NCBI GenBank assembly: GCA_949152475.1
Contig: OX424566.1
Location: 17,445,177-17,509,176, forward strand
DNA from: Terebella lapidaria
Lineage: Eukaryota; Annelida; Polychaeta; Terebellida; Terebellidae
Direction of reading: 5' to 3'
DNA length: 64,000 nt
Shown: in pieces, positions 7,636-37,400 of the stretch
How the letters are laid out: each line of letters opens with the position of its first letter
Numbering within the stretch: position 1 is the first letter of the stretch
The notes under the pieces: model-generated
The model's input: only the letters and a program-made list of their open reading frames with translations
Database searches by the model: none
What the model was told of the DNA's origin: nothing
Translations under genes and position numbers: made by a program

Positions 7636-8370
7636 TGTGGCGATTTTGCCCTAAGCACGCGGCAGGTGATTGTAAACATAAAAGCCATTTATGTGGCCTT
7701 TCTGTACTTGGCCTTGTTTTGACATGCTCCGTTCGAGCGTGCGTTGCCACGGCGACGTATTGTAATTTACGTTCCAGTAAACTATAACAATGGATCGATT
7801 TAACCTCGCGTGCGTCCTACAGTTTGTGGTGTATTATATATACACTGGAAGCGACTCGTTCGAGGAGATTGTCCAAGATCGAGACTAGGACGCACACGAG
7901 GCTCGCCATGAGCTTTGTGTTCCCTGAGTCTGAGTAGTGGGCTCCTAGAGCCCTGGGGACGATTTCCGTGGGGAGGCCCGGGCTGGGAGAGACGAGTTGC
8001 TGACTCGGGGGCCTTCGGCCCTGTGGATCGCCAGCTCTCTCCCTTCCCGGGACATGTGACAGAGGCTCTGGCCAGCATGTCGGACTGTACGGGGTTCCGT
8101 CCCCGAGGCAGACCGCGGCTCGCCAGGCCCCGCCAGTTAACACCGTGGTGATGAACCAGTTTCTGAACGGTGTCCGTAGGCCTGGGAGTGTCGGGTGGGC
8201 GGTTACCTGGTTACCGTTAATGATGAAGTAGTTACCGTGTCCGCCGCGACCTCCGGTGAGCGGCCCTGCCGCGAGGATCCGGAATAGCGGATGCGCGTCC
8301 GCAAGGACTCGGATGAGAGAGGACTATCCTCGAGGATCCCGAAGAGCGGACGGTAGTCAATAACTTTACA
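7636..8370 (+). repeat. 5' LTR of the whole gypsy element
   Basis: It starts TGTGGCG and ends ACTTTACA, 735 bp, and matches the 3' LTR position for position with an offset of 10,005 bp. Short open frames inside it occur identically in both LTRs and are not genes. Confidence 0.95.
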
Positions 8371-8371
8371 T

Positions 8372-8383
8372 TGGTGCCGTGAC
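8372..8383 (+). other. Primer-binding site, tRNA-His type
   Basis: TGGTGCCGTGAC begins 2 bp after the 5' LTR. It is complementary to a tRNA 3' end reading GTCACGGCACCA, which fits metazoan tRNA-His (acceptor stem GCCGTGA). The match weakens after 12 bases. Confidence 0.65.
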
Positions 8384-8483
8384 CAGGATCAGTCTGACAG
8401 TGTTCCATCGCAGCCTATCGTCACAGTGTTGTTGCCTCCTTAGTCCCTGGGGATCGCCCGCTCCTCAAGGACGTCTCGAAGAA

Positions 8484-10700: not shown

Positions 10701-13700
10701 ATCCGGACGTGGTGGCGACCAACACTGCGTCCGGGGATAGTTGTTCGGTGGCAAACGATGCCGCCCCACCCGCTGATGAGCAGGACGGACCCCAAGTGGA
10801 TATGACTTCTCCGGAAGTAGTCCTTGGAGACCAGTCTAGCTCCTCCGCGGCTGAGGCGGATGGCGAGGACTCCGTAGATGAGCCCAGCGCGTGCGAAAGG
10901 TATCACCCGACCTGCGCGCTGGTGAGGGACCCCTGCTGGTACCTGCCCCTGTCCTTCGGACGGGAGCCGGTCCGGTTCCTCATAGACTCAGGCTCGGAGG
11001 TGACCCTCGTGGCCGCCGGAACGTTTAGGAAGGAGCCCGCACTCCGCAACCTCGAGTTGCGAGATCCCGGACCGTACAAGCTCTACGGAGCGGGAGACAA
11101 CCGCATCCGTATCCATGGCATCATCGATCTGCCTATTACCCTTGGGGACAAGGTGTATCTGACAGAGGCGATCGTGGCGGATATCGGAGCGGCCGGGATA
11201 ATTGGGATGAATTTCCTACGGGTCCACCGGGTGATTGCCAACTTTAGCGCTGGCGAGTTCCGGATGGGAGAGGACACACACTTCCTCTTCCGCTCGGGCC
11301 CGATGCATTCATTCCAGATGCGGACATCGCGCACTGTAGTAGTGCCGCCGATGAGTGAGATGATCATCGAGACGAGGCCGCGGCGTCCCCGCATGCCCCT
11401 CGATGGTCGTCCGTGTATAGTGCAACCCGTGAGCAGTTTCGCCGCAGGAACTGGGCTCGTGCTGGGTGGGGCCCTGGTCATGTCCAACCCCCGCGCGATG
11501 CCCATCCTCGTGGTGAATCCTACGGATGCTCCGATTGTACTGAAGCGCGGATGCATAGCAGCTACTGCTATTCCCGCGGCTTCGAGTCGTGTCATCCCCG
11601 ACGATCCGGTCTGCCGCGCTGCGTGCGCGGCGGCGGCCGCCGGAGATGATCCGTTCACCCTGCCGGACCATTTGGAATCTCGGGTTCCGAAGGACCGGCT
11701 GGATGAAGAGCAGCGCCAAGCGCTCCGCAGACTGCTGCGGCAGTATGCGGATGTGTTCATGGGTCCTGATGGTGCGGTTGGCAAGACTGACGTCGCCAAG
11801 CACCGCATCGACCTCGTGGACGAGCGTCCTCTCAAGCAGCGTCTTCGTCGGGCAGCAATAGTGCACCAAGAGGTCATAGACCAGGAGGTGCAAAAGATGC
11901 TCGACTTGGACATCATCGAACCCAGTGACAGCCCTTGGGCCAGTCCGGTGGTTATGGTGAAGAAGAAGGACGGCTCGTGGAGGTTCTGCGTGGACTATCG
12001 GAAACTCAACGATGCCACGCGGAAGGACTCATATCCTCTCCCGCACATTGAGGATACCTTCGATGCCCTGGCCGGGTCGCACTATTTCTGTGCTCTGGAT
12101 CTGGCCTCCGGGTATTGGCAGGTGGAGATGGAGGAGAGTGATCGGGCGAAGACTGCCTTCGTTACCAAGAACGGGCTCTACCAATTCAAGGTAATGCCGT
12201 TCGGGCTCTGTAACGCACCAGCGACGTTCGAGCGCCTCATGGAGATGGTACTCAAAGGGTTCCTCTGGAAGCGATGTATGGTCTACATCGACGATGTCGT
12301 CGTGTATGGCCGGTCGTTCGAGGAAACCCTCACCAACCTCCAGATGGTGCTCCATCGCATCCGCGGAGCAGGGCTTAAATTGAAGCCAAGTAAGTGCGAG
12401 CTATTCGCGCAGGAAATCCTGTACTTGGGCTTCATGGTAACGGGCACCGGAGTGAGACCAGACCCCGCAAAGGTGGCGGCCGTGCAGAAATGGCCTCCGC
12501 CATGTAACGTGGCGGACGTGAGGTCCTTCTTGGGCTTCGCGAGCTACCACCGCAGGTTTATTCGCGGCTTTGCGGAGATCGCGCGTCCCCTTACTATCCT
12601 CACGGAAAAGGGCGCCGATTTTGTTTGGTCCGCCGAGCAGGCTAACGCCTTCTCGGGACTCCGGCAGGCCTTGGTAGTGGCCCCGGTGCTGCGGCACCCT
12701 CGTCCGGACTGCGAGTTCATCTTGGACACCGACGCGAGTAACTTCGCGCTCGGCGGTGTCCTCTCGCAGATCGTGGACGGGCAAGAGCGGGTAGTAGCTT
12801 ATGCGAGTGTGGCCTTGAGCCGCTCTCAAATGAACTACTGTACCACTCATCGCGAGTTGCTCGCGGTGGTTACGATGACCAAGCGCTTCCGGCACTATTT
12901 GTTGGGACGCCATTTCCGTTTGCGGACTGATCATAGTTCGCTGAGATGGCTCCTCAACTATAGTGAGGCCGATGGCTTGGTGGCGCGGTGGCTCGTCAAA
13001 CTCCAAGAGTATGACATGCAGATAGAGCACCGCGCTGGTAAGTTGCACGGCAACGCGGACGGCCTGTCCCGTTGTCATAAGTGCAAGAATCCGGGTTGTG
13101 CAGGGATGGCACCATTCCAGCAAGCCGCGGATTCGTCCTCAGACTCGGAATTGGACGTTCCGGGGAGACCGCAGGCCACCGCCCCCTCTAACAACACGGC
13201 GGCCGGAGCGTCTAGGGCTCATCTCCGCGCGCGGACCCGCCGATATCGGCGAGGGCGTCCCGCATATGAAGCGGAGGTGCGGCTCAGCTCCAGCGAGTCT
13301 TCCTCGAGTCCGGCGGTGTACTCCTCGTGGGTACCCTCGTCCTCTGGAGAGTCTGAGTATGAGCGGTCCTTGCCCCCTGTGGTGATGGCCGCTGCGGCGC
13401 AGCCGGACGCGACGGATGAGGAGCCTAATTACTTGGGTGGCTACTCTCCGGCGCAGATAGCTGCGGCGCAGAGAGCTGACAGAGCTCTGGCACCGGTAAT
13501 CACAGCCCTTGAGGCCGGCCAGAAGCCCTCGAAGGATGAGCGAAAGACCTACAGGGAGGAGACCTTGTCTCTAGTATCTCAGTGGGAACGACTCTCCTTG
13601 AGGGATGGCCTCTTATACCGGCGCTATGAGCCACCGACCCCACTGCCTCCAATATGGCAGTTGGTGCTTCCGGCGGAGCTGCGGAAAGAAGTACTCCACC

Positions 13701-15007
13701 AGTTGCATGACCTCCGGGTGACCGGTCACTTGGGAATCCGGAGGACCGTCCATAGGCTACAACAGCGCTTTCATTGGCCTGGTAGCGGCTTGGACGTGCA
13801 ACGGTGGTGCGCAGCCTGCCCTCGGTGTCAAGCTCGCAAAGGAGTCCCGACTCCTGGCCGCCACCCCTTAACCACGGTTAAGGCGGGCGCGCCGTTTGAT
13901 CGGATAGCTCTGGATATACTGGATACCCACCGGGTCACCCCGCGCGGTTTCCGGTACATCCTGGTGATATCCGACTATTTTACCAAGTATACCGACGCCT
14001 ACCCACTGCGCCGCCAGACTGCGGACGAGGTAGCTCGGTTGTTGGTGAATAGATGGGTGGTGTACCATGGGGTACCTAAACAGGTACATTCGGATCAGGG
14101 CACGCAATTTGAGAGCAACCTGTTCCGGAACCTAGCACAGATGCTAGGGAGTACCAAGGTGCGTACCACCCCCTACAGGCCCCAGTCTGATGGCCAGGTC
14201 GAACGCTTTAATCGATCGGTCCTCAACATGCTGGCGGCCTTTGTGAATGATCGTGCGAATGATTGGGATGACCACCTCCCGTATGTCTTAATGGCATACA
14301 GGTCGTCGGTCCACTCTTCGACCGGAGTTACTCCGCACGCGATGTTGTACGGCCGGGAGTTAAATTTGCCCGTGGATATTATGTATCCAACTGCGGCAGA
14401 GACCGGCGCAGTACCCCAGTGCGGTCCGGAGTACGTGGAGTGGATTCGCCGCGCCCTGGCGAACGCCCATGATTTCGCGCGCGCGCGCCTAGACAAGTCT
14501 GCCCTCCGGCAGAAGCGAGGCTATGACGCCCATGCTAAGGGTAGGCCAGCTTTTGCGGAAGGCGACAAGGTGCGCTACTATTATCCGCCGCTTAAGCAAG
14601 GCAATAAATTTGCTAAGCCGTGGATAGGCCCGTTTACCGTACTGAAACAGGTGACAGATGTGGACTACCGGATCCGGAGGGATTCCGATCCGGACAGGGT
14701 TCTGGTTGTCCATATCGATAATCTGAAGAAGTACGAGGGCCCGCTTGTCATGGATCCGCTAATTCAAGATGCGGAACCGGATGACGCTCCCGTATGGGAT
14801 CCGTCCGGTCAGCATCCGCGGACTCCGGACGAGCGTGTGCGCCGTATGGTGGGCCTCCCGGACCTCTCTGACCCGTCAGATGATGGACTGGGCGGCTATC
14901 AGCCAGATGACGGCGATCCGCAGGTACCTCCACTCCCTCCAGTACCTGCGGATGACGGGCGGCCACGCCGGAAACCACGTGCGCCAGCCCGGTATGGGTG
15001 GGAATAA
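10493..15007 (+). CDS. pol-like frame of the gypsy element
   Basis: The frame spans 1504 codons from its first ATG. Parts in order are retropepsin (FLIDSGSEVTLV, about 10,976), reverse transcriptase (YIDDVVVYG, about 12,283), RNase H (DTDASNFALGG, about 12,727), an integrase zinc-binding HHCC segment (about 13,700-13,850), an integrase DDE core (ALDILDTH, SDQGTQFES, DGQVERFN; about 13,900-14,210) and a GPY/F-like C-terminal module (about 14,530-14,740) with an acidic, Pro-rich tail. It looks whole. Its ATG lies within gag, so expression as a Gag-Pol product is likely. Confidence 0.92.
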   Translation: MLCVHLRTSSEPSLLLLRKAGTLLAEVSGVVGTPAVARIPGSSPWPATEEFLPVWSSGTAESEPAAGKLDPDVVATNTASGDSCSVANDAAPPADEQDGPQVDMTSPEVVLGDQSSSSAAEADGEDSVDEPSACERYHPTCALVRDPCWYLPLSFGREPVRFLIDSGSEVTLVAAGTFRKEPALRNLELRDPGPYKLYGAGDNRIRIHGIIDLPITLGDKVYLTEAIVADIGAAGIIGMNFLRVHRVIANFSAGEFRMGEDTHFLFRSGPMHSFQMRTSRTVVVPPMSEMIIETRPRRPRMPLDGRPCIVQPVSSFAAGTGLVLGGALVMSNPRAMPILVVNPTDAPIVLKRGCIAATAIPAASSRVIPDDPVCRAACAAAAAGDDPFTLPDHLESRVPKDRLDEEQRQALRRLLRQYADVFMGPDGAVGKTDVAKHRIDLVDERPLKQRLRRAAIVHQEVIDQEVQKMLDLDIIEPSDSPWASPVVMVKKKDGSWRFCVDYRKLNDATRKDSYPLPHIEDTFDALAGSHYFCALDLASGYWQVEMEESDRAKTAFVTKNGLYQFKVMPFGLCNAPATFERLMEMVLKGFLWKRCMVYIDDVVVYGRSFEETLTNLQMVLHRIRGAGLKLKPSKCELFAQEILYLGFMVTGTGVRPDPAKVAAVQKWPPPCNVADVRSFLGFASYHRRFIRGFAEIARPLTILTEKGADFVWSAEQANAFSGLRQALVVAPVLRHPRPDCEFILDTDASNFALGGVLSQIVDGQERVVAYASVALSRSQMNYCTTHRELLAVVTMTKRFRHYLLGRHFRLRTDHSSLRWLLNYSEADGLVARWLVKLQEYDMQIEHRAGKLHGNADGLSRCHKCKNPGCAGMAPFQQAADSSSDSELDVPGRPQATAPSNNTAAGASRAHLRARTRRYRRGRPAYEAEVRLSSSESSSSPAVYSSWVPSSSGESEYERSLPPVVMAAAAQPDATDEEPNYLGGYSPAQIAAAQRADRALAPVITALEAGQKPSKDERKTYREETLSLVSQWERLSLRDGLLYRRYEPPTPLPPIWQLVLPAELRKEVLHQLHDLRVTGHLGIRRTVHRLQQRFHWPGSGLDVQRWCAACPRCQARKGVPTPGRHPLTTVKAGAPFDRIALDILDTHRVTPRGFRYILVISDYFTKYTDAYPLRRQTADEVARLLVNRWVVYHGVPKQVHSDQGTQFESNLFRNLAQMLGSTKVRTTPYRPQSDGQVERFNRSVLNMLAAFVNDRANDWDDHLPYVLMAYRSSVHSSTGVTPHAMLYGRELNLPVDIMYPTAAETGAVPQCGPEYVEWIRRALANAHDFARARLDKSALRQKRGYDAHAKGRPAFAEGDKVRYYYPPLKQGNKFAKPWIGPFTVLKQVTDVDYRIRRDSDPDRVLVVHIDNLKKYEGPLVMDPLIQDAEPDDAPVWDPSGQHPRTPDERVRRMVGLPDLSDPSDDGLGGYQPDDGDPQVPPLPPVPADDGRPRRKPRAPARYGWE

Positions 15008-17640: not shown

Positions 17641-18375
17641 TGTGGCGATTTTGCCCTAAGCACGCGGCAGGTGATTGTAAACATAAAAGCCATTTATGTG
17701 GCCTTTCTGTACTTGGCCTTGTTTTGACATGCTCCGTTCGAGCGTGCGTTGCCACGGCGACGTATTGTAATTTACGTTCCAGTAAACTATAACAATGGAT
17801 CGATTTAACCTCGCGTGCGTCCTACAGTTTGTGGTGTATTATATATACACTGGAAGCGACTCGTTCGAGGAGATTGTCCAAGATCGAGACTAGGACGCAC
17901 ACGAGGCTCGCCATGAGCTTTGTGTTCCCTGAGTCTGAGTAGTGGGCTCCTAGAGCCCTGGGGACGATTTCCGTGGGGAGGCCCGGGCTGGGAGAGACGA
18001 GTTGCTGACTCGGGGGCCTTCGGCCCTGTGGATCGCCAGCTCTCTCCCTTCCCGGGACATGTGACAGAGGCTCTGGCCAGCATGTCGGACTGTACGGGGT
18101 TCCGTCCCCGAGGCAGACCGCGGCTCGCCAGGCCCCGCCAGTTAACACCGTGGTGATGAACCAGTTTCTGAACGGTGTCCGTAGGCCTGGGAGTGTCGGG
18201 TGGGCGGTTACCTGGTTACCGTTAATGATGAAGTAGTTACCGTGTCCGCCGCGACCTCCGGTGAGCGGCCCTGCCGCGAGGATCCGGAATAGCGGATGCG
18301 CGTCCGCAAGGACTCGGATGAGAGAGGACTATCCTCGAGGATCCCGAAGAGCGGACGGTAGTCAATAACTTTACA
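17641..18375 (+). repeat. 3' LTR of the whole gypsy element
   Basis: It has the same 735-bp sequence as 7636-8370. It follows the purine tract directly and is followed by the TTGG target duplication. Confidence 0.95.
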
Positions 18376-19433
18376 TTGGATTGGGGAGAGCAGTATACGC
18401 ACCACTATTAGTTGACCTTGAACTTTACCTCTGATGACCCCTGTGCTCAAGCTACTTGAATTGATTTTTTTGAGGCAGCATGTGTAGGGTGAAACATAAC
18501 ACTAATAATTTTATATCATTTAATCTTTGATATTAGCATAAAAATTGAAGGACCTACATCTTTTGGTGACTTTGAACATGACCTCATAATAATCACAAAC
18601 CTAACTTTCGACTAGCTAACGGATTGAGCACCATGGACTATTTTTTTCATCACACGTTTAACATATTTATGTGACTTTTAGACAACTGTGATATCAAGAT
18701 TTTGCAAAAAAAGCAATCAACAGAACCATTTGCATAAGTCTTTATTATATAATTGACATATAATTACATCAGGTTATGAAACCAGCAATGTACACTGTGA
18801 TATGAACACATTTATTTATTTATTATATACACCTACACGTATGTCCAATCATATGCTACATCCTAGACAATCATCCACTGACTATACATATGTTTATTAT
18901 TTACATCTATACACATTTTTATAGACAAATTTTTGGTCACGATAGTTTCGTCTTTTCTTGCATAATGAATAGGTAAATCTCTATTCTAAAGCATACCTTA
19001 TACATGCATAGTCTTGATAAAATTATTAACCCTAAGAGCACTTATTTCTCTGTTACATCACATGTCATGCACAAGGCGTGCAATAAAATATATTTTTTTT
19101 TATTCTGAAAGATACAACTTGTAACAAGTTAATATATTGATAATTCAACTACCAGACTAATACCACCCAAAAAGTATCATCGTGGTGACAACAATGAAAT
19201 AATGCATTCAAAGTTTTCAATGATACAACAGAAAGTATGATCACTATTAATTTTCATCAAATTATATTCATAAACTACAACTGTTTGTTGGCAAGGCTGT
19301 TCGCGTATAGCATGTAATTGCACATATTGGAGTGCAAAATAAGAGTTAATAAGAAAGCCTAACAACTCAAAATACAGATATATAACATGATAACTGAAAT
19401 CCTCAGTAACGAAAATATTTCTAGATGACAATT
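18376..19433. other. 3' flank and probable 3' UTR of FKBP15
   Basis: This AT-rich DNA lies between the LTR element and the FKBP15 stop codon. Several minus-strand AATAAA hexamers occur (for example near 18736 and 18815-18825), any of which could end the transcript. No other coding signal was seen. Confidence 0.5.
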
Positions 19434-19499
19434 TTATTTCAGCCAATCATCATCGTCATCCTCGTCCCCGAAAAGTGGCGGCGGTTTTGGCTTAAGATC
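19434..19499 (-). CDS. FKBP15: FKBP15 last exon, conserved acidic tail
   Basis: [20 protein letters not shown] then K and TAA (19436-19434). It matches the human terminus PPPTPLFGDDDDDDDIDWLG. The acceptor is TTCCTAG. It anchors the identity of the whole gene. Confidence 0.92.
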   Translation of the reverse strand, partial: DLKPKPPPLFGDEDDDDDWLK

Positions 19500-22400
19500 C
19501 TAGGAAGAGAAAGAACACATCATCAGTGTGTAGATTTATACCTAAAATAGTTCAACATTAGCTCATACTTTTGTGGACTTTGTACGACTCCAGTAGTTCT
19601 AAATTCAGAATGATTATTAATTATTTCACCCCAAATTTGATGACTAGTGCTTACGACAGTGGACTGAATATGGCATATGATATGCTTGTCATTTATTACT
19701 TCACATATATTTATGTAAAAAGGAAATATTTAAGATAAATTTGATGCATCATAATAAAGTTCCTTAATGTAGCAAAAGCATAGGATAGCGTTTTTATTAC
19801 ATTGTAACAGTAAATTATGTACATATGTACAAGATGGCAGTTTCGTAATACTTGTGAGCATGACGAGGAAAGAAAGAAACCAAATGACAAGGTGAACAAA
19901 ACTTTGTGAACACAAAGAAATCTGTGAATTCCACATAAAACAAAGAAATACCCTAATACTTAATGTGCTTTGAAATGCATTGCAAATTATGTGTTATGAG
20001 TATTTGCAATATTAAACATTGTGGAAAATCTATTTGTTAAGAATTGAACATCAAACTATATCTAGGACACAGAACTATTTCACAACTAGTCTGTCACTGA
20101 ACCTTTCGTGATTCCTAAAAAAAGTTAAAGAATATTTAGTGAGGCTATTTATATAATAATAAAGATAACTACATCTGTTTCCAGCACTGGATATGTTATT
20201 TGCGATTACGACAGTTTCTCATCAAAATTTGTTATATCAGCGTCACAAATGCCGAGATGCATAGTAAGGATTGCAACTTTTTCAGATAATTTCTTTTTAG
20301 TAGGAAACCGTTTTTCGACGAGTTAACGTACATCGTCAGAATCTGACTTGTAGACCTTCGGCTGGAATCCGGGTTTCCCCGGGGATTGTGCGACGTTCTT
20401 CTCAGGGCTGGATCTGTAAAAGTCGAAATTACCGTCATTGATTCTGGTGGCGGAAACTTGAAAATTGTTGTTATAGCTTAATTGTGTCATCTTCTAGTAT
20501 CTCATACCTCAGTTACAAGTGTATGTGTGAAGACGAGTAATTAAAACTAGAAAATAACCAGCACTAAAGAAACATATCTTTACATAGTATTTTGTATATA
20601 AACATAAATTTCGTATGAACTGAAAAAAAATCTTCATCTTTAAATAACAAAACTACCCAGACATAGTGAGCATATATCAACATCAGCTGTACTGACTCGT
20701 CTTTTGTTGCAGACTTCTGGTCTTTGGTGGGGGACTTGAACAGGTCCCCTCCGTCCTCACTTCCTGGCGACCCGAACAGGCCCCCAGAGTCGGACTTGGT
20801 GGGTGAGGAATCCTTTCCCGGAGGTCCTGCCTTCGTTGAGCTGGGCCCCTTGGCAGCGGCAGGCTCGGTCTTTTGTTTCTCGCTTTTAGTAGATGTTGGA
20901 GATGGTTCTTTTGATTTCGTTTTGTCGTCGCTAGGTTTGGATTTCGATTGTGCATCGCCTAACCCACTGCTAGATTTTTTGTCGTTTCTTTGCTTATTGT
21001 CAATATTCTTTTGTGATTTAGCGTCCTTAGGTTTATCACCCTTAGGTTTAGAGTCTTCAGGTTTAGTATCCTTAGGTTTTGAATCTTTTGGTTTAGCATC
21101 TTTAGATTTACTATCCACCACTTTCTCTGATTTTGGCGCATCTTTTGATTGCTCCTTCGGGGTGTCCTTTTTGTTGTCTGATTTTCCAGTTTTGTCCTGT
21201 GATGCCGCCTTAGCTTTCTCCTTTCCACCTTTACTCTCTACTGTTGCAGGTGTCCCTCCAGGTGTTGATTTACGACTGTCTGGAGATGAATGTTTCTCCC
21301 TGTTTTTGTCTGATTTTGTCGCAGATTTTGCTTCTTCACCTGCATTAATGGAATAGAATATTTGTTTTCGTGAACTATCTTCGAGTAACCATTCTATTGG
21401 AGTATAAACATGTGCATGATAAACTAATTGAGTATTTATTATTGGATCTGCAACTTTGTGCCCATATTTAGCCAAAATCATAACTCAAGCTGGCATAATA
21501 CACGTAAGTATTTGAGAAATTTATATCAAAATCCTGATTGAGTTCCTACCTATGTCCAGTTCAGCTGCGTAGTATGGGTTCCCATCGTCACCAGTGAAGG
21601 GAGCCACGGAAGCTTTGATGACGTCAGCAACTATTTCCATCGCCTTGGCTGGGTCTGTTGTCATGGTTACGTTGTGGATGGGAATGGTGTATAGCAAAAG
21701 CATGGGTATGGATCTAACTGTGCATACTTGGAGGATGTTGAACTAAGGTTGTACAGAATATATACACATGTATTTATACAAGTGGTTGTTGAATTGTAAT
21801 ATACACTGGAGTATTTGTCATATCAAAATATGTGCAGATATAGTTTTTTCCCTCATTATCAGGTGCACAGTGTACAAGGTATTTTGACACTAATTGAAAC
21901 TTTCGTGATTTGCACAATTTCATTTTTTGAGCTTTTATTTGAGCTCCACTCTAGGTTTTCAGAAAGGCCATGATATGTATGCACAACATAGTTTGATACA
22001 TACATACATAGAGGGCATCAGATACACGGGAATGAAAATTTGATTCAGAGATCAAAAGTTTGGCCCAGGAAGCTTGTACTGCTTGTTGTGCTGTATTTTG
22101 CAAAATGAATATTCATTAAGGATTGTAAAGGTGTGAGATGAATTAAATGGCCAGCACAATCTACGTGGGCCAAAAGTTCTACAGTGATTATTTTCCCCTG
22201 GAGGTTCATACATCACTTGTAACAATCAATCAATCAGAAAATATATGAACAACCTTCTGATATGCATGGATACATGGGCCTATGTATATGTGCCCAAAAC
22301 AAACCCCGCTGTATACCTGTGCGCTGAGCCTCCTGAGCGCGGTATGGGTTACCCCCGCCCCCTGTGGTGGGTGAGGCCGGCTGTATGGACACTGAAGTGA

Positions 22401-25400
22401 CCACCCCCTCGTCTACAACATGGATAGACAGATGGAAGGAAGGACAAGTGGTTAGCGGGTTAAATGGAGGTTGACAGAGACAAACAAAACAGACGAGAAT
22501 AGTGTATTAACTCATTGTGAGAAATCAAATTATAAGTAAACATAAAAGCACCAAAGAATTGAAGCGAATCTTGCAACAGATGCCAAAACAACACATTGAA
22601 AATTGAAATGGTGAACATTTCTAGTTGCGTATAATAAATAGTATTAAATCCATTCACAACATATATATATATATATTATTACACATAACATAATGCACAT
22701 GATATCCTTGGCCATGACACACCCTGTACTTGGGAGTCGCATGCTGTTGAGACACCCTGTGCATGGCCTGGCAATGTTGCTGTGACAGTCACACTGGTGG
22801 ACTCTCTGACAGGGTCTGGGAGAACTTTGGCATGCACGAGGTCTACATCTAGGTAATGTATATATATACATATGCAAGGAATATGAATGGCATGTAATTA
22901 TGTGATTTGGCATTCATGATTCATTCTATTTATTGATATTCGATATTAGATATTTAAGTATGAGTATTTTGAATCTAAAGGCCTGGATCAACGTTTTTAC
23001 TATGATGTGTACGGATAATCTGATCATAGATTTAACAAAATTTCAAAAAGGGGAGGCAATACAAATTATATTGCCAAAAACAATGTAACTGAACTTGAAA
23101 ACTACATGTATGGGTAAATTTTCTCTTTCAGGAGCTTAATATATTGGGGATTATGAAATACATGTACAACCACAGAACACTTTAAGAAGTCCTCAAAAAG
23201 TTCTCTATTTTCTATGTTATACTATCAGGAAAATCTTGCAATTGTCGACCAGGTCCTACTACAATGTTGTGACCTTAAGGGGGTACTACCAGTCATATCA
23301 GTCAAAATTTTAAATGATATGTTTGCAAATGCAAAATAAACTACATCTAATTCCAGATCTAATCGAAATAAAAATAATACTTTATCTAATTGAGTGTTTG
23401 TTCTGTAACTAAAGAATGAAATAAGTTGAAAAGACTGAAATAAAATCCAAAAAGTATAGCGAAATAAAATTTTTAAAATTATAATGTGAAAACAAACCTT
23501 TCGAAGCTGCAAGAATTAATGGCTAATAGCCCGGCTTTTTTTAAAGAGCAAAATAAAAGTGAAAACTACATTAAAGAGAAGTCTGCCAGCTCAACCTTTG
23601 TGCTCTACGAGAAGCGAGTCTCCAAAAAATATTTCACCCTTTTCCGCCAGACTGAGCAGGGGATGGACCGCCTCCTGGGGTGGTCCATGTGGGGACCGGT
23701 CTGATTCTGGGCATAGCCAGCAGGGAAAAACTGGTTAGTATATGTGTGTCTCCATGTGATTCAATTTACTTTTTTTGTTTCATTACGTCAGTTTTGATAT
23801 TTGGATCCATATGTAAAATAAATCAGTCTGTTCTTTGATATAATTTATTGTTCAGTGAATAAATCATCCAATTTCATACATGATATTCCTTTGATACTGT
23901 TGATAGGATATTGATTGTTTGATTGAAAATCAAGTCTTAATTGGAAACAGTGGTTAAGTATAAACTTATTGAAAATCAACTCCGTTGAATACGTGCTAAT
24001 TTTTTTTGCTATTTTTAAGCGGGGGTATATAGACATATATGGTTTAAATTGATTAAATTGATTTGGTACACAAATCAATTAATTAAATTGATTTGGTACA
24101 CATACTTCAAACTTCTGAAATTTGTATACAGCTTAATTTTCAGTACAGCTGATCAAAATCATGGAACACATGCAATCACAAGCATCACAGATTTCAAGGC
24201 ACATGGTATTCCGCATCATACCCCGGTAATTATATTTTTTATTGGGGGTTCGATATGCAAGCGAACAGAAATGCATCATAAAAAGTGTACCTTTATCCGA
24301 GTCGGAGTCGGATTTATCTTCCTTGCTGTCCGTCTGACTTGTTAAAGTCTTCAGGATTTCCACTGCATGAAAAATCGACCATGAAAAATAGGGAATACCA
24401 GCGAGATTTTTATCACATACTAGTATATATTTGTGTGAAAAATAATGGCCAATAAATATTCCAAGAAAACAAAAATGTGATTGAAGTTTCAAAAGTGACT
24501 GTACACAAAAACCAAAGTATCATCTTAAGCAGTTTCTGTGCATGTTCGTACAAGACCCAACAACTATACCCAGCCCGCCAACGTAAGTTATAAACAGTCA
24601 CCCAAATTATTTAACGCTCATCCTCTCTAAAAGAGATGTTATGTTTAGACAGAACCTTTCTTGGATATTTCCGCGGGGTCAGTTTTCAGAGACTCCGATT
24701 GGGCACTGGGAGCGGCTGTGGTCGATACAAAGATATCACCTGGCTTATCTGCAAATGTCGTTATTAAGTTGTCTAAAACAAAACACAATCACCTTGTCTT
24801 GCGATAAGATATTCAAATATTTGTTCATTTTTTTTATCTTGCTAAAAGCACACAGAAGAACTAGTAATGAAACTATAGAACTAACAGAGAAACGACATTA
24901 GGTTTGAGATTAAAGTAATATGTTATATTAAGTACAAAAAGCATGCTAACTGTGGAAGTAAAGATAACGAATAAAACAAAGTTCTCAGATGGAAATCACA
25001 CATAGTAAAACATGTACATGATAGAAAGGGAGAGAGACATTTGGCCCCACCCACCAAACACTTTATATCATATTTTTCAAACATACAAATAGCCATGTCA
25101 TAACACATGTTACATGCCGGTACCGAGCAAAAAATCTACAGTACTAACAGACTTAATTCCACAAACCTTCTTTCACGAGCCCCTTGTCTCCCGTAATTTG
25201 GGGTGCTTCCTTCTTGACAATCGGGGTGATGCCTGTAACCATAGCAACAACTACATGTATATGGTAAATCAACAGGGTGTAACCATAGTAAACAGACATT
25301 TAGGGTTTTCTCTTTGATATGAATATTTGATAATATATGTTCTAAATTTTGCAGCTCTTCAAGTATGTTAAAGTGATATTGGCAGTAAGTTTTGGATTTT

Positions 25401-28400
25401 TCCATAACTTTCTGATTGAACGAAGAAAACATAAAAGTTAAATTTCTGCACTTGTATGCTCAAACAGATACCATTTTTTAATTGATTTCGTTGCGAGTTT
25501 CTGGTGGATATATTTTGAAATTGTTCACATTAACGCCATTCTCGGTGCTTTGTATCCTGTGATGCAGTGCGATTCCAGCTTACTCGTGTATGTTCGAGCC
25601 AGTCGAGCGTGAAATAGGTTAAGTCAGAGGTAACTCTGAGTGGCGCACAAAACAAAAGAAAAGCGGCTGCTAGTACTGTCATATGCTCTGATAAAGCATA
25701 ATTTGTTTTGTAACCTATTTTTCTGAGACCACAGGCATATTGTTTTAGAAAAAATAGTTTTCCTGCCAACATCACTTTAAGCAATTTTAGGAAATCTTGG
25801 ATAAAAATATTGCAACAACATATGACATCACATGCAAACTCCTGACAAAAATAGATTTCACGCTTGAACAGTCCACCAGTCATGCATGCACACTGACTAC
25901 CTTCACTATTGAGCTCTGCGGCGTAATGCGGATTTCCTTTGTCGCCACTAGTGTGTGCCACAGCGGGTTTGATGACCTCTGCGACAATTTGCGCTTCGAC
26001 TTTAGCCTCTCTTTCATTTGTGGGGTTTTCTAAGCGTGCAAAATAACGTACAAGGATGCAGGGATTTAGGGTGCGGTTGGATTATGCAATTGTGAATCAA
26101 ACAAATACATGTACAAATCATGCCAATTTACATGTCCATTAATAATCAATCATTACATACTCATTAGAATATTTTGTGCCATCATACATATGGATTTGAT
26201 GATTATTTCTGTGCTTTAAATGCAAATTCAGCTTACACGCTTAAATAATTTCAGTTAAATGAATTTTTCAGCATCTGATTTTATGCTATTTACACATGTT
26301 ACACGGCTTATTACATGCATATAACTGTGCTCAAATAACGTATACAGATGAATAATAATAATGTCTTTCTGAAATGAAATATTGCGAGAGAGAAATATTT
26401 TGGTTAGTAACAGAAATAATTCTGAAATGGAAAATACTTTTTATTAGTATTAAGCATACAGGTATATTGTAAAACAACTAATTTCGGCGGACGATATATT
26501 TGACGGATTTGGCAGTAGAGGTATAATTAACTAGATATATCATTAGAAATATATGTGGTTTTGAAACCGCCAAATAATGTGGGGCTCACACCGCCAAATG
26601 TAATAGCCGCCAAAATTAGGGTTTTTACAGTACTAGTTTCCTGAACCTGCTTGCAAACAAAGCCTGTGATAAAAGCGGACCTTTCACAAAAAGATCACCA
26701 TAGATAGATGGAAACAAGATGGAAGTCCCATACTCAGCAATAGATGAACATGTGATAAAAGATCACAAATGCTTGAGACTAAATAATACAGTACTATTAT
26801 AACAAAGGGTAACATCTGCTACCAGAATGCTAAAGGTTACATTCATGTAGTTCATTCAGTGATGCTCTGGTTATACGATGTGTTGATAGACACTGAATTT
26901 GAAGCAGTAATTATAAAGTAATGTAGGAGAAACTTGACAACAGCTTTTGCCGTAGGTCTAGAAATTGTGAAAAGAAGCCACATCCAAAAGATCATTCATA
27001 GCCATTTTGAGACTTTTTTTTTACCCAAAAATGCACCAAAATCCTATAAAAATTTCTAAACTAGACAAAAAGATCTATGAAAGCCATCAAAAGTTACACC
27101 ATACACAAAGAAAGACTACGATAGAAGATCCCTTTATAAAATGTTATAAAACCTTTCTTCAATTCAGCTGCATAATACGGATTCCCTCGGTCCCCTGTAT
27201 TTGAAGCGACTGCTGGTTTTATGATGTCACTTTCAACTGCAGTTTGTCCGGCTAGAAATCGTAATATTAAGTGGTTAAGATCAGTTCTGAAAACTTCATG
27301 CGAAAAAAGAAAAAAACGATCAATTAGCAGATTAGATATCTTGAAATTTGTAAGTTTATCCACATGTAAAGTTCCAGTTACTTTTCATCAGTTGATCACT
27401 TTCAGAATAAGCATTGTTTCAGTATCAACTAAACACTGTGTTATTTCGACATTGTCAATATTTCTCACTATCTATCACGTTTATGTTTACTCAGAGACCG
27501 TTCTTTAATTCCGCTGCATAATATGGATTTCCTCGGTCCCCTGTATTTGACGCCACAGCGGGTTTTATGACGTCACTTTCAACTGCAGTTCGACCTGCTG
27601 GTAACCATGGTGACACATAAGATCAGTTCTACAGACTTTCTTGACATTCAGTTATCAAATGTCCTGGAAATTTCGGTCAATAAATTGTTTTCTTGCTTGA
27701 ATGTATTGGAATGAAATTTTTTCCACGGAAAACTCCAATAACCTTTATTCAATTCTTCCGCATAATAAGGATTTCCCCTGTCACCAGTAGATGGAGCCAC
27801 TGCTGGTTTTATCACATCGGCTGTGATTTCCTGTTTTCCAGCTGTGAAAACCACAGATTTCAATATTGAATACATTATTCAATAACTCATGGGAAAATAC
27901 GTGTAATTTGGTTTGTAATGTTATGAATAGGGATGTACTGAAACCTTTTCGAAGCTCGGCAGCATAGTAAGGGTTGCCTTTGTCCCCAGTAATTGGTCCA
28001 ACAGCAGGTTTTATGACATCATTATCTTCTAAAATTACAATTAAATCAAGATTATTTTCAATATGAAAATGTTGCACTTTTGTTGGTCAACTATAAAGTG
28101 CTTGTCAATTTAGGAGTGTATATTTTATAAAAACTTTCTCTAGCATGTCTAGGGGATCTACTGCGCTTTCAAGAGAAACTAAACCACATGTATATGAAAA
28201 TTGCAATCCTATCATTAACATGATTAAAAAGTTCATCTTTTTTAACAAATGCATGTTTTTTTTTAAAGAAAGTTCGCTGTTTTTCATTAGTTTGTACCTG
28301 CGAATATTTCTGAGGCGTAGTGTGGATTTCCCTTGTCACCACAAATATATCCACTAGACGGCACTATTGACTCCTCAATAGCTGGTAAACATAGTAGAGA

Positions 28401-31400
28401 AAATTGCATGTTGCTTTATAACAAATCTCAAATTTAGTTTTGTTGTTGTTGTTGATACAAATACATTAATATAGTTTTGCGTGTGAGTAATAAGTGCAAA
28501 TTTATAAGAATGCCTACTGCTAAAAATATATCAAGTTTCTACAGGTGCTAATGGGTATTTTGATCATGTTACAAGATATCCCCTACATTACAGCGCACTC
28601 ATACAACGATAATTGAAATTGCTTCCTATTACATTGATGACACCCGAGACATCCCCATAAAAGTAGTTTTTTTCCCGTCTCATCCCAGGATAACAACCTG
28701 TTAGTTTAGCAGCGTTTAGCTCCCTGGCATAGTGGGGGTTGCCTTTATCCCCACAAGTTGAGCTTGCGGCGGGCTGCAATACTTCTGAAATATGCCAAGG
28801 TCGTTGGAAGGTCAATGATAGGGCATTACTCCCATTGGGGAAATGACCGCTAATTTCGCTAAAATATGATGAGGGAATTTGCACATGACCTTGGTGGTAT
28901 CAAACCTACAATAGGGACGGTGGTCGGGTCCATGATGTCACTTTGGTAGCTGATTGAGCTGTTTATATATTTTTTCCTCTCTTTTTTGTTGAATAATTAT
29001 CTGTATTTCGTATAATACTTGCAAGGATAACTACCTTTTACCGATAATGTTTAAACCGAGTATGAACGAATGTTTCGGACATTTTTTACATGAAAACTAT
29101 GTTTTTAAAATAAAATCTATCCAAATTGAAATCTATGCAAGGCTTACACCTGAGATGCCCCCCCCCCCCACCATCCCCAGAGAAGCCAAACTAATCAATT
29201 CTACATGTACCCTCGACCACAGGCTTCTGTCCGCTGAGTTGAGCTGCGTAGTATGGGTTCCCACGATCACCGGTCACATGACCCACGGCGGGCTGTATGA
29301 ACTCCTCCACCCCAGCTGTTGTCATGGAGACAAGAAGGTATAAATACAAAGCAATCGTTCTTTGGGGGAGCTCAGCTTGATAATATTTCATAGTTATAGT
29401 GTCCAGGTAGGTGTGATTTATGTAAATCATTGCGTAATATATCATACGCTAATGTAGAAATGTACTATTTGGTCCTCCTTATACATGTTATAGTCTGATT
29501 TATGTACAGTGTCGTCCATTAATTTGGAGCCACCCAAAAGTAGTAAGATATTTCAAACTGTTATACATCCAATAGGAAATTGGATACCTGTTTCTTATTT
29601 TTTCACATACATGTATTGAGATTCTGGACGACCAACTAATTACATAATATATATTCTGTAGTGTCATATGATCATACAGCTGATCCGGATTTGCGCATCT
29701 GGATCTAGGACTTTTCTTCCCAATCTGTGGGTGAGCACGGACCTCAAATTCTTTTTTATAAATGTTTTTATTCAATATCGTTATCCACCTTGAAAGATTC
29801 TGAGCAGCAAATGTTTTAGAAATGAATATATACCAAAGGAAAAGGTTTCAACGAACGTATATTTCTCCGAGATTATGTGATATATGATCCAGAACAAGTG
29901 GAAGATCCAGTCAAATCGTTATGGCTATCACTCTTATTGTAACCCAAATGTGGCCTGTAATTTTCATCACTGGGTTTATTGAAAATATACACTCATAACC
30001 ATGTGATTGCAAAACCAAATTGTGTTAATCATGACCTCACTAAAGTGGCTCCAAATTGATGGATGCATGGCACTGTATATGATTAAAATGAAAACAACCT
30101 CATCCGTTAAGATGCCCATTCACACAAACATTTTAACTGCATGTTACATCTGGAAATAAAACTGCAACATTTGAATCCACAGATATACCAGTTGTTACGG
30201 TTACCTTGGTCCAGCTGGGCGGCATAGTAAGGGTTCCCACCCCCGCCAGTGATGTGTGACGTCGCGGAGGTCAGACGTTCTTCTACTGCTGCTTAGTGTG
30301 GGTTAACATTTATGAAATCATCAATATTTACATATTTACATGCAATAAGACTTAAGTTTTTTTCTGTAATCTCGGGACTTTTGATTGAGGCTCATGCCAA
30401 AACAAAACGTGTGCATGAATTTCATACATGAATGAGTATGAAAATTTGAATTGTACATTTTGCATGCAGTAAGTGCATGCTGCTGAAACAATCAATCAAT
30501 GATGTACATGTAAATCAATAATCACACAGGATTTCAAGCTGGGAATGGTAACTTTACAAGGACATAATATACATGCAAGATCTATCAGACAAAATGAGAT
30601 AACGGGAAAATATTTGGACACACAATATCGCACTTACCTCCGGATTCTTCATCTGAAACATAGTGAACAAATTTGATAAAAACATGTTGAGTGATCTCAA
30701 AATTAGTGTGGCCTGGTAGTGGGGTTTTTATTTGAATGGCAAACAATATTTTTTTTCACCCGAATAGATATAAGTGCACATGAAATTTTAAATTTTTTAC
30801 TGCAATTTATATCATGTAAGTGAGAAAGTCACAACTACAAAACTGATACAAGATCTTCGTTCAATTAAATATATATTATGGCACACACAACAAACATCAA
30901 ATGACATGAGAAATTTCACATTGAGTATTTACACATCTATTTACTGTACTCTGCTACAATGTCTTCTTTATGCTGAAAAAATATATATATACTTGTACCA
31001 AAGGTACTGAATTGTAAATGGAGAGTTATATACACACACACGAAATGTTAGAAGCAGCTACATGTATCTACATAGATGTAACTAGAAACCAAGAATTAAG
31101 CATAACAGCAAAATTTATAAGAGAAGCAAAGAGACACCCAGACCGTGTTAAGCCTCACCCTCATCCCCGATGGAGAAACTACCACACGTTGAGTCGGAGG
31201 AACTCCAGTCGTTCTCAGCATCGCTGGACATGATATCTTTCTGTGGGATGTCGTCTAATGATACTGGGGAGATCTCTTCACCAAACTCATCCTCGGAAGA
31301 GACGCTGAAATCGCTGCTACATTGCAAATCAACTGGAAAGTTTGCATCAATGGTGGCGGTAGATCTCGAGCGATTTTGATTTGAGGAGTCTGTTTGGGTA

Positions 31401-34400
31401 GTGTATTCAGTGGTGTCCTTAGTCTTAGCATTGTATGGATCATATGTTGATTTTGCCGGATGTCTGCTCATGTTGTCAATGTTTTCACTTCCTGTGGTGA
31501 TTTCATCGACAAAAACTATTCCATTCTGGTGTAAACTGTCTTGTCCTGAGTCGGGCATCATCGGAGCAAATTCGTCTCTGGTGTCTCCTTCAGCACCAGT
31601 AGTTGAGGTATTTTTTTCTTCAATTTCATCATCATCCATGTCATCTGCATCATCATCATTATTTTCCACATCATTGTCATAGAATTCCTCATCATTTTCG
31701 TCATCCGTACTGCTTTTTTCTTCAGAGTCTTCAGCATATTGCGTGAGCAGAGAGAAGGTTCATAGACAGGCTTATTTACAAAGAAACGAAACGAAAATAA
31801 AGTACATAATACACAAAAGCTTTCACGTTAGGATATGAAAGCTAGCACCACCAAACTGCAGTATTGTTGCGCAAAACAGGAGCCATCACCAAAATATTAT
31901 TACTATCACCTGACAGAAGAATTTTACATTTTATTTTTACTTTAAACAACGATGATCCAAGAATGAATCCAAGACCTTCAACCTTATATCTATACCAAAC
32001 ACACTATGTACAAGTTTACAGCAAAGAGCAGCCTTATCATACCATGCCCACTGTCAAAGTATTTACAACAGAGACAGAACTTCTTTGGAAGAGAAGACAC
32101 ATGAAGAATATAATACCTTTCTCCTCTTGTTTCTGCACCATTTGTAGTGTCACTGACTGTAAATATGAGAGATATTTCATTAAGACACACCATTTAATAA
32201 CTTTCAGAAAACCTTCAAATTAAATTCGAAGCTTCTCGATACTATTATCATATTCTAATCATGATAAATTACTGTGACACAAATTCAGTGTAAGGTAGAA
32301 AATAAAGCATGACAAACTATTTATGACTATGACTATTACTTCAAACTATATGTTATGAAACACTTCAAATTTTAGTTCCGGTACATGTATACCTTTAATC
32401 AATCTAAATAAATGATTGATTATTCTTATCATAAGACCCCCACATCCGTAGCTTCGATAGGTGCCTGCACACGTACCTTGATAGTATCCATGATTGTGGT
32501 GTTGATGTCTGCGCCATCATACGAGGATTTCTCTTCAAACTCCCCCTTCAGGCGGTGGTACACCGAACTCATGATCTTCTTCACCTGGTCACAACGTTAT
32601 GATACATGTGTTAGCATACGAAAGATTTCCGCACCTGGTGGGAACATTATGATACATGTATTTGTCATACAATATATTTCTGCACCTAGTTGGAACATTA
32701 TGATGACAATGTTGAACATTGCCTGGTAGAATTATATTTATTAGATAAACTAGTATACTAGTAAAGACTTCTAATGATTATATTCCTTATGATCAATAAC
32801 TTATCAAATTCATATAATTTCAACCAAACATCTGATTATGATTTTCAAAATTAATGATTTTTTGTTGTTGTAATTCAAGTGGCCAAAATACTATTGTACT
32901 ACTGTTGTATTCAGTTTTCTGTATTTAGTACAGTTACCTCTGAGACAAGCTCGTCCCTATCCCCAGAGCCCTGTGAACTCTCCAACTGTACAATTCGTTC
33001 TTGGTATTTCTCCTTCATCGTAGACGCCTGGCTCAGAACGTTGTCATACTGCGAGGAAACAGAACGAGTGTTAATCTTTATTCAATTTCAAATTTGTGAA
33101 AAAAATTCTAGGAGTATTACAAGTAAGGACAGTCTCTTATGATAGGAGATCATTTGCTATGACAGATTTTTTATGTTGACATTTTAGATTACCTCAAAGG
33201 AAAGCAAAGTTACAGCAGAAATCCATGGAATGGGGGTGGCATTCTTATGTAAAGTTTGAGAACTCATGCATATCATTTAAATCAGTACTGCATTAATAAC
33301 AAAATCTGAGAGTGCATATACTAGTATTGTACAGTTCTGTGCCATAATGTAAAGTAGTGCATGGGTAAATCAATCAATTGAAAGACAGTCAACTTTTCCC
33401 AAAAGCCTTATTCTTCCTGATGGGAAATAAGTTTAGTTGTCCAGTATCCATGGCAACAGTAACCACAGTTCTACCTTCGCTTGAAGCTCGTTTACTCTCT
33501 CTTCCAGTAGGTGGCACTCTCTCTCCGCCTGTGACAGCGCCGCCTGGTGTTTACTTTCAGCGGCTGCGACCAGACGATCACATTTTTCTTGCCACTCTTT
33601 GGAGAGCTCAGTATTCTAGTGACATGCAGTGGGAATGTAGGGGATATATACATAAAATGGTATAAATTTGTGCAAAATTCTTAAATACATTCAGGTATAC
33701 ACTATATATATATTTTGTGCATGGGAAAAATCAAATTTTTTGTACTGAAATTTTTATTAATATTGTTGTCATCTACAGTTACGGTCATTTCCCATTTTGT
33801 TTCCGGATTAGTTTTCTTAGCACTAGTAAAACAGTATAATCTACATTATAAAACACATTTGCATAACTTAAATATGAAGTGAAATATACATATCAACATA
33901 ATTCAGTTTTCTCTGGACAATTGTATATATACACAAGTATATAGGTGTACTAACTTCATTATAATTTATCAAACTGTACAGGATGCAATGACTGATTGTA
34001 CGGAGAAGGTACACCACATACCGGTTCTGAAGAGGACTTCTGGCCTTTCGCTTTGGCCAGCTCCGCCTGAACGTGACAAAATATAACACACATAATCAGC
34101 TTGATATGAACAAATATGAGAGAACTCTTTTTAATTAATCATGTTGACGGATTTTAGCTTATCACAGGTACACAAAAGAATTTTATGATCGTGTCATGAA
34201 ATATCAAACAGTGACCACAAAATTCAGATTTCAATTAATTTTGAAATGTAAACCTAAGCACAGATTAGTTCCCACATAGTTTTGAAACCTAATATCAAAA
34301 CAGGTATTTAAAACACATGTAGAAAACACAAACTTCGTAGTATTTCTTTGTGTCGTCGAGTTCTTGACGTAAAAGTTCCTTCTCCTCCGTCCATTTCTGC

Positions 34401-37400
34401 TTCTCTGTCTGCGTCTGGCAATGTAACATTATATTTGTCAATATGGATGTCTTTCTGTACATACATTGCTATCAGAAAATACCATTTTTTCGAGTAATTT
34501 ACTATCAATATACATTGCATATTTATCTACGAAAAATTTCATTTTTCAATTTCAAAGCATATCTGAACGGAGTAACAGATATATTTATTCTAAATGAAGA
34601 CCATGGACAGTATTCATTATTGCAACACATTCAAACTGAAAGTGACTCTGCCTCACACCTCACTCACACATACACGTAACCATGGTAACAAATCATGCTG
34701 TAATTCCAACCACTTCATCCAAACACAGGCAATAAACAGAATTTTTTTTTTCCCATAATGCTTCTGGAGTATATCTTGGTGTACAATTTTTCATCTATAT
34801 TCTGAACAAAAAAAATATATGTATATCTTGACTCTCAATATTCCATTCACATAACCACTGCATGTACTGCCATAGCAACAAATCCATACTCACATGGACA
34901 TCAGTCGTTGCCTTGGTTACCGCTTTCTGGCTGCCCCCTTGGAACATTCGGCCAAAAAACCCGAAAAGTCGGTCGAACATCCTAGTGTTGCAATTTATTT
35001 CTATAGACATGATGGGTTTTTTCTTGTTTTTTTTTTACTTATCACAACAATAAGACACAATTTTTGTGTGAGATGATTTGTTAATTTTGTTGTAATATCC
35101 AATATCAGAGTGAATTTATCCTTGGGTGATCATGAAGAACATCCAAATAAATCTGTGCAATTAAAATCATGATTCTCCATACATATACATTTCCAAATAA
35201 CTAAGATGAAATTCCAGTTGAATTCTTTCCAATTAATCAGTTAATTCCACGGCATATTCCTTGATCAAAGTATCAAAACATTTTCCCAAAATGCCAACCC
35301 CCTGACACATTGGTGTACACGTAAGCAAATTTCCAATCGAACATGTCCTTCGATATTGTTTATGTGGTTAACACACGTGAACGTCCGAGAGCCGATGCAG
35401 TCATTATCGAATGTTGTCTGCTGATGCCGTTAATTCGGACAATACTCAAGTTTCAATTGCTGCAGTTAACTTGATATAATGCGTAAATTTTGTGAAATGA
35501 ATCGAAAATAAAATGTCAATCATAACTTTGCTTGTTATTCCTGGGATTCCTCAGAAAGTTATGCTTATGTAATCCAATTTATAAATTCATAACTTTTTCC
35601 CAGTAATTAACATGCATAAAATAAGTAAAATATTCACAACATTGTGCATGAGCAATATTGCACATTTGAAATTTGAATCACAATGGCCAGATAGGCTGCT
35701 GCACAATAAAATGTTCAATAAAAACATAATAAAGCATTTTATGAGATACAAAAATGATAAATGTACATGTAACCGACCTGCTGATTTTTCGCCTAGGTCA
35801 TACAGTTGAACATCCAGTGGCAAAGCATCCAATAAATCAATATTTTCACAGGATTTCGCAGTGATTTTTGCCTGTGAGAGGCACTGATCAGAACCTACGT
35901 GTTTGTGTAACCATAATTCATGGATGACATAAAATCAATGATCAATGTTCAACATTATCAGCCCGTACCATATGCAGAAAAAAATCGAGTGTACATGCAC
36001 TTGGCCTGCGAGTAGGCAGCATCACAATACTATATGTAAGTATGCAGGTATGAACTAGGTGTTCATGATAGTCATCATTTATATGCAATATGTATCATCA
36101 TGGCACTTTGGTACAGGAAATATGTAGGACCATAAATTTTATAATTATTATATATTTTAATTATAATCATGTTCAATGAGTATAATCATGTTAAAAAGTG
36201 TCCTCAATGCACATTATAAACTGGCTACATGTACTTTTATGCAGATGCATTACCGAATTTTCTACATGTAAGCTTAAATGTTTCCAACCATAGATCATAT
36301 ATAGACAGACCGGGCGGAATACTAGACTAGAGTAAAGGTAACATGTCCACAGTGACATATCGCAATTACAGACATCACGGCCCTTGAAGCTTGTTGGAAC
36401 CACTCAGGACGCCCACACATTGCTGCTGATAACGTTGTATCATGTGTATCTGGGTGTTACTTGATATCACATGATACCAACCTCATCACAGGCAATCCCC
36501 AGTGTCATGATTTTTAGGTCTGATGTTTTTCTTTTTGGTGATAATCATAAGTGGACAAGATCTACATGTACACCGTTGTGACGTATCACTGGTTGTCTAT
36601 GATTACACATACACTATTTTCATGATGCTTTGTATTGTCATGACACGCCTTTACGCCTATAGCATCAGAATCGTCAAGTTATTTTACTTAAGTTATCTAA
36701 AGTTGAATGTAAACACTGCTAATAATTGAAGAAAAGCATGTACCTGAATTCGCCTGGTAGTATTGTAATATCCAAATCAGAGAGACATCGAAAGAACTAC
36801 CCGTACTGTCTCACTACACGTACAGTGAATGAATGAATACAGCATGCGGATCTACATATCACTACAGTGAGATGCGTCTCAAGTGACAAAAAAATTCGTG
36901 GCGACAAAAGAGACCCTTTAGAAAATCCGGTAGTAGTTTTCATTATAAGTCCATTTACTATTACTTCCTGAGTATGTGTGCAAACAAATAAGTCCAGGCC
37001 ATTTTTTTTTTTTCGATTCAATATTGCCACTTCATGTGGACATACGGTTGTATATGCCACAGATAAAATTTGCGAGTGGAAGTTTTCATAATTTATGTGT
37101 GATACTAGAACTTTGAATGTGCATTCTACCATTGTGCAATGTACAGATGTATACGTACTGGTAATTCTATTATGAATATGTAATATTTGACACTGTAACA
37201 GTTGAAACGCAAATACACGCTTACTATACATACATAATATAACCATACCTGTTGTGTCTGCTATCCGTATTATCCTATATAATAAAGTCTAGATACAAGT
37301 ATATCGATGCAAGCCAGGTGCGCAAATAAATAGCAATATGTACAGTTATGGTGGTATATCAACAAACATGATGTTTTTATATCCCTCCCTGATCTGAGTA

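Follow-up and report, generated by a model that had tools for sequence, protein, structure and literature searches.

A stretch of 64,000 nucleotides from the annelid Terebella lapidaria (assembly GCA_949152475.1, contig OX424566.1, positions 17,445,177 to 17,509,176; hereafter the window) contains, on its minus strand, a gene for FKBP15 that carries a tandem array of small exons. These exons encode eleven clear copies and one remnant of a module of about 28 residues, which profile comparison also places in unrelated proteins of other species. We regard it as rather probable that this module was inserted into FKBP15 and multiplied there, that it is a product of exon shuffling, and that it constitutes a multivalent docking repeat for a shared partner. 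A wider proposition, on which our judgement is evenly balanced, is that a mobile class 1-1 module of about 28 residues was shuffled among the cytosolic scaffolds of spiralians (FKBP15, GRASP55, RanBP2, and KANK), conferring one docking specificity on several organelles; exon duplication and splicing would set its valency, and FKBP15 would be its oldest carrier.

Twelve symmetric exons encode variants of one module

Twelve separate small exons on the minus strand, between positions 21550 and 30288, encode variants of the module. Each of the twelve is flanked by AG and GT, comprises a whole number of triplets, and is of phase 1-1, the codon at either edge being interrupted after its first base; every one of them is therefore open to in-frame duplication or skipping. 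Eleven of them encode GNP(Y/H), and ten of these eleven keep NPxY, E14 reading GNPYR instead. The coordinates and counts, which had been proposed in an initial annotation made from the sequence, were confirmed, and the exon array is genuine, its joins being predicted from genomic DNA. It is situated between an acidic exon and a lysine-rich tail exon, ahead of the conserved FKBP15 C-terminus.

The window exons were scored with a profile built from 32 module copies, all of them from proteins other than FKBP15. With this outside profile, ten of the eleven GNP exons scored 23.8-44.0 bits, as against a chance level of at most 10.8 bits in 20 first-order Markov windows and 5.5 bits in the reversed window. 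These ten are E1 (30205-30288, TGGGGNPYY, 44.0 bits), E2 (29211-29315, TGDRGNPYY, 38.7 bits), E3 (28698-28784, CGDKGNPHY, 23.8 bits), E4 (28298-28381, CGDKGNPHY, 31.1 bits), E5 (27945-28028, TGDKGNPYY, 36.0 bits), E6 (27743-27841, TGDRGNPYY, 35.0 bits), E7 (27499-27597, TGDRGNPYY, 32.0 bits), E8 (27153-27251, TGDRGNPYY, 27.8 bits), the 129-nt E9 (25901-26029, SGDKGNPHY, 30.3 bits), and E15 (21550-21654, TGDDGNPYY, 35.5 bits). The remaining GNP exon, E14 (22317-22412, TGGGGNPYR, NPxY lost), at 5.5 bits, and the remnant E10 (25167-25232), which retains TGDKG only and scores 7.9 bits, stay within the chance level with the outside profile. When the window copies were included in the profile, E14 scored 22.8 bits and E10 4.4 bits; E14 is counted as a diverged member because of its position, its phase, and this second score.

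Three further small phase 1-1 exons in the array region, assigned from AG/GT edges and frame, lack the module: a 15-nt microexon encoding DEESG directly ahead of the array (30638-30652), a linker exon, E11 (24656-24748), and an acidic linker exon, E12 (24291-24362). A candidate exon at 23590-23740 was inspected and was not included in the model.

The gene hosting the array

The predicted domains, the collinear tblastn matches to exons, and the C-terminal exon identify the host gene as FKBP15, in agreement with the initial annotation. The modelled protein, which is partial, matches the FKBP15 coiled coil (PF23649, E=1.5e-28) and FKBP_C (PF00254, E=1.8e-20). FKBP15 proteins of molluscs, Lingula, Owenia, Saccoglossus, and others give collinear minus-strand tblastn matches from 51274 down to 32477, and the terminal exon is similar to the C-terminal sequences of other FKBP15 records, which are of the conserved type PPPLFGD..DDDWL. 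Read in the direction of transcription, the approximate N-terminal exons, which cover a WH1-like region, lie at 50011-51274 (four exon-sized tblastn matches with spiralian and hemichordate queries) and are followed by the FKBP (peptidyl-prolyl isomerase-like) domain at 49202-49866, in two exons (49645-49866 and 49202-49342), and by partly modelled proline-rich and coiled-coil exons at 32477-48949. Next comes the acidic exon upstream of the array (31159-31738), whose modelled 5' start lacks an AG and whose boundary is provisional. Beyond the array lie the lysine-rich tail exon (20693-21339, its lower end placed by eye at a GT; an earlier model had 20691) and the terminal exon with the stop (19434-19499, approximate). 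The window gene thus shares with FKBP15, also known as WAFL, the WH1-like region, the FKBP domain, the coiled coil, the acidic segment, and the C-terminus.

Among the FKBP15 candidates of the same genome, 30 of 56 of which were scored, matches outside the FKBP domain were found only on C13. In a phylogenetic tree, the window FKBP15 belongs to the spiralian side (97/99) and lies outside the clade of gastropods and bivalves (98/96); its branch is long (1.12), the model is partial, and Owenia, Lingula, Octopus, and a JGI record are not resolved among themselves.

Module copies in unrelated proteins

The initial annotation took the array to be a tail peculiar to FKBP15. Profile and pattern searches argue otherwise: homologous copies of the module are recognized in proteins unrelated to FKBP15. 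A search with the array against 5.8 billion proteins recovered at least ten carriers among 7989 candidates scored. These comprise the FKBP15-like protein of Batillaria and two isoforms of that of Pomacea; two RanBP2-like records of Haliotis rubra and one unnamed RanBP2-like protein; two proteins, from Babylonia and Littorina, that we label KANK-like because they combine a KN motif with ankyrin repeats; and two further proteins that fit no clear family, of which P0001 has 22 copies. A search with the module only, which recovered at least 12 matches among 413 candidates scored, added GRASP55 of Littorina and Babylonia; the GRASP55 identity of one of them, P0128, is supported by PF04495 at E=1.2e-76. 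Further carriers may exist beyond the matches listed.

By profile, there are 22 copies in P0001, 12 in Haliotis RanBP2-like, 8 and 5 in the two Pomacea FKBP15 isoforms, 6 in Batillaria, 5 in P0008, 4 each in P0006 and P0007, and 2 in each KANK-like protein; by pattern, the GRASP55 proteins have 5 and 4. The RanBP2-like, KANK-like, and GRASP55 carriers share with the window gene a module of about 28 residues in 2 to 12 copies, in hosts unrelated to FKBP15, and the VE, TGDKGN, YY, and L positions are spaced identically across all carrier families. In the FKBP15-like proteins of Pomacea, Batillaria, and Gigantopelta, the module stands at the same site as in the window gene, after the acidic segment, in 8, 6, and about 5 degenerate copies, respectively. 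These gastropod copies have a V-E-E-P-M linker, whereas the window copies mostly have V-I-K-P-A-V, and those of Gigantopelta are decayed.

Several carriers merit separate comment. The two GRASP55 proteins (P0128 and P0130) contain, besides full modules, runs of half modules of the AEPMMKASASQLTG type that end ahead of GNPYY and are perhaps decayed or otherwise used copies. The annotated Batillaria protein, P0004, joins a sulfatase to FKBP15 and is probably a merged gene model. The contigs that bear the records labelled 'lgn' are about 3-5.6 kb long and contain complete FKBP15 reading frames, and therefore resemble transcripts; in that case, P0006 and P0007 would represent spliced, module-bearing mRNAs.

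Five single modules were searched against Pfam, and none of the five matched any family. The only matches of the profile in the Protein Data Bank (PDB) were four chains, designed or of repeat type, at E 0.05-1.8 and with eight residues matched. The module itself was not found in print in the open-licence literature of PubMed Central (PMC).

Constraint and conserved positions

The module copies are old and under purifying selection. Uncorrected Nei-Gojobori counts between the window copies give a pooled pS of 0.82 against a pN of 0.32, far from the neutral pattern that would have spoken against the initial annotation, and the core gives 0.89 against 0.22; for the closest pair, E7 and E8, which are identical at 86 of 99 bases, pS is 0.44 and pN 0.02. 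Recent segmental copying of this pair was considered and rejected: the introns beside the two exons, with 62 and 59 matched positions, are no more similar than random 100-mers, which average 56.7 and reach at most 64. Thus, either the exons were duplicated long ago or their introns have since diverged.

Conserved positions were tallied in 78 copies. Because the pattern used to select them itself requires G, G, and N/T in the core, fair comparisons are confined to NPxY, TGD, the -5 residue, and the outer columns. In this set, [TSC]G[DEN]xGN is present in 68 copies and NPxY in 39. Of the columns free of the picking pattern, column 27 is L (0.93, family-weighted) and column 4 is E (0.71); T at column 15 (0.85) and D at column 17 (0.87) are only loosely constrained by it. 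The consensus of the module is approximately V-E-x-x-(M/I)-x-(A/S)-x5-(V/I)-T-G-D-(K/R)-G-N-P-(Y/H)-Y-(S/A)-x-x-L-(D/E). The sequence VIKPAVA, which the initial annotation placed first in the module, characterizes some of the copies only; the better conserved part is TGD(K/R)GNP.

NPxY and the definition of the module

The initial annotation saw in NPxY the point of the module. In the form of that interpretation considered here, the module would be a ligand for adaptors with phosphotyrosine-binding (PTB) or FERM-F3 domains, of the SNX17, SNX27, or Dab/ARH kind, and the array would be a multivalent endocytic docking tail. In its favour, FKBP15 binds retromer and the WASH complex on endosomes (PMC4024763, in excerpt), where the FERM domains of SNX17 and SNX27 bind NPxY-type motifs (PMC11339278 and PMC8083963, both in excerpt). 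NPxY is kept in 10 of 11 window copies and in 19 of the 25 FKBP15 copies counted. Across the 78 copies, however, half lack it through loss of the tyrosine or the proline, and it is kept in only 1 of 21 copies in P0001 and 3 of 9 in GRASP55. The FERM ligand of SNX17 requires a hydrophobic residue at -5 relative to the tyrosine (the motif PhixNxx(Y/F); PMC11339278), whereas the module has K in 51 copies and R in 15 at this position and a hydrophobic residue in 4 of 78, with none in the 11 window copies. Furthermore, conservation extends beyond the NPxY core, to TGD on the N-terminal side and to the leucine on the C-terminal side. We know of no role as cargo for five of the six carriers. Binding of the module to PTB domains is thus possible but not favoured, and we judge the adaptor-ligand interpretation unlikely; NPxY may be used in FKBP15, but it is not what defines the module.

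Distribution among FKBP15 records and in the Terebella genome

The module is not restricted to the window species, being present in FKBP15 records of three gastropods. Among 120 of 510 FKBP15 matches, mostly vertebrate and some partial, it was found in four records from three species, namely Pomacea X5 and X11, Batillaria, and Gigantopelta X1 (decayed). The other 116, unlike the window gene, lack it; these include vertebrates, two hemichordates, Lingula, bivalves, octopus, and Physella, together with Owenia and some others whose records are partial. There is no NPxY at all in 114 of the 120. This distribution suggests that the gain of the module in FKBP15 was lineage-specific.

In the 762-Mb genome of the window species, all nine matches to GDxGNP(Y/H)Y, all six to a wider TGDxGN pattern, and all seven to the module consensus at E up to 10 lie in FKBP15. 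An exonised transposable element was ruled out for this genome, since core patterns and consensus matches are confined to FKBP15. FKBP15 may have been the first carrier, because it is the sole host seen both in the window species and in gastropods. RanBP2-like genes occur in this genome in several copies on one chromosome (C15), including two near-identical pairs (L055/L056, L057).

Isoforms and copy number

Annotated database isoforms differ by whole modules. The Pomacea FKBP15 isoform X5 has 8 modules and X11 has 5, with differences of 28 and 60 residues; Gigantopelta X3 is without a 223-residue block of X1 that comprises all of its modules; Littorina GRASP55 X2 and X3 show 71- and 30-residue differences; and in Babylonia there are apparently two isoforms differing by modules. 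These differences fit a tuning of valency through splicing. The suggestion, made at the outset, that valency is tunable by exon duplication and splicing agrees with both the symmetric, duplicated window exons and the database isoforms.

A proposed shuffled docking repeat and its alternatives

Because homologous copies occur in molluscan cytoplasmic proteins of unrelated families, as well as in two unnamed proteins, we propose that the module is mobile and has moved between unrelated genes by exon shuffling. In FKBP15, a short exon-encoded module would have been inserted downstream of the acidic segment and ahead of the conserved C-terminus, and then multiplied. Single copies are probably not folded domains; each would expose a TGD(K/R)GN(P)(Y/H)Y...L surface recognized by the same cytosolic partner, and copy number, altered by exon duplication and in-frame skipping, would set avidity. 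The hosts have in common that they are cytosolic scaffolds, and we favour a docking repeat. The hosts other than FKBP15 presumably belong to the Golgi, the nuclear pore, and the cell cortex; through the partner, scaffolds of these sites and of the endosome would be brought to one machinery.

In metazoans, exon shuffling usually draws on symmetric modules of class 1-1 (PMC8001218, in excerpt). The window module resembles them in having one symmetric phase-1 exon per module, in its tandem duplication, and in its apparent spread to unrelated genes. It differs in being cytosolic and about 28 residues long, whereas the shuffled modules of that account are mostly extracellular folded domains. The shuffled unit here appears to be motif-sized and intracellular, and to occur in scaffolds of different organelles. 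If this is true, one adaptor should link these organelles in molluscs, and the natural isoforms, with 0 to 12 copies, would offer a ready series for relating valency to recruitment. The module profile is also a search tool for a module outside any Pfam family.

Several observations weigh against this proposal. The exon joins are predicted, the partner and its binding are putative, and phase 1-1 was checked in the window only, that of the other families being deduced from isoform edges. A scan of the GRASP55 gene of the window species, of four of its RanBP2-like stretches, and of 30 kb at its KANK gene found no module (best score 6.3 bits), and spread to other genes is therefore seen in other species only. 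The own-genome search had a weak control, as P0007, with its four modules, matched nowhere, FKBP15 included. Summed weak repeat scores in P0001 pass the threshold of PF19972 (29.5 bits, cut-off 27), and those of the window array approach that of PF23938 (25.3, cut-off 31), although no single stretch passes in either case. Finally, an AlphaFold2 prediction of GRASP55 P0128 from four sequences had a mean pLDDT of 28; since it is low over the GRASP domain as well, the prediction says nothing on whether the module folds.

A cytoskeleton-binding repeat, for actin or for microtubules, is a second alternative to the docking repeat, and we consider it improbable. FKBP15 and KANK are cytoskeletal proteins by reputation, and GxxGN(P/I/V)H(Y/H) is, in what we take to be a loose and unsupported likeness noted by eye, reminiscent of the tau/MAP repeat. 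The composition of P0007 and P0001 is compatible with such a role, P0007 being basic, rich in S, T, P, and K, and endowed with four copies, as is the regular spacing of copies, about 29 residues, in P0002. Against it, searching the PDB with the module profile at E up to 10 recovered no tau/MAP chain, and none of the Pfam tubulin-binding families was matched by P0007, P0001, P0128, P0004, P0013, or the five single modules. The actin-filament motif of PMC13364712 was also considered and gave nothing usable.

The copies could instead be spacers, constrained but ligand-free linkers that set the length and solubility of the tail. A role in setting length would tolerate the variation in copy number, from 0 to 12, seen in the FKBP15 and RanBP2 carriers. 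The strong constraint on T, G, D, G, N, and L, the excess of pS over pN, and the occurrence of the same residues in unrelated hosts make this interpretation very unlikely. Convergence or low complexity, rather than common descent, would be conceivable for a module of only about 28 residues, but the scores of ten window exons with a profile of other families, well above those of random windows, and the invariant spacing of its conserved positions render this extremely improbable.

Other features of the window

About 1 kb beyond the FKBP15 stop lies a retroelement, labelled Ty3/gypsy by eye, with two 739-bp direct copies (7636-8374 and 17641-18379) and gag-pol-like open reading frames (8364-15004, plus strand). 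The direct copies are 100% identical, and the insertion is therefore recent. A minus-strand frame at 3520-4260 resembles, by eye, what we take to be an exon of a cytosolic sulfotransferase, and a plus-strand frame at 58164-59061 presumably belongs to a carbohydrate sulfotransferase of the HNK1 type, again from its appearance. A minisatellite at 57441-58100 can be read without stops in several frames of either strand, and the plus-strand segment at 60628-60987 is, by eye, likely the first exon of a deoxyhypusine synthase gene.

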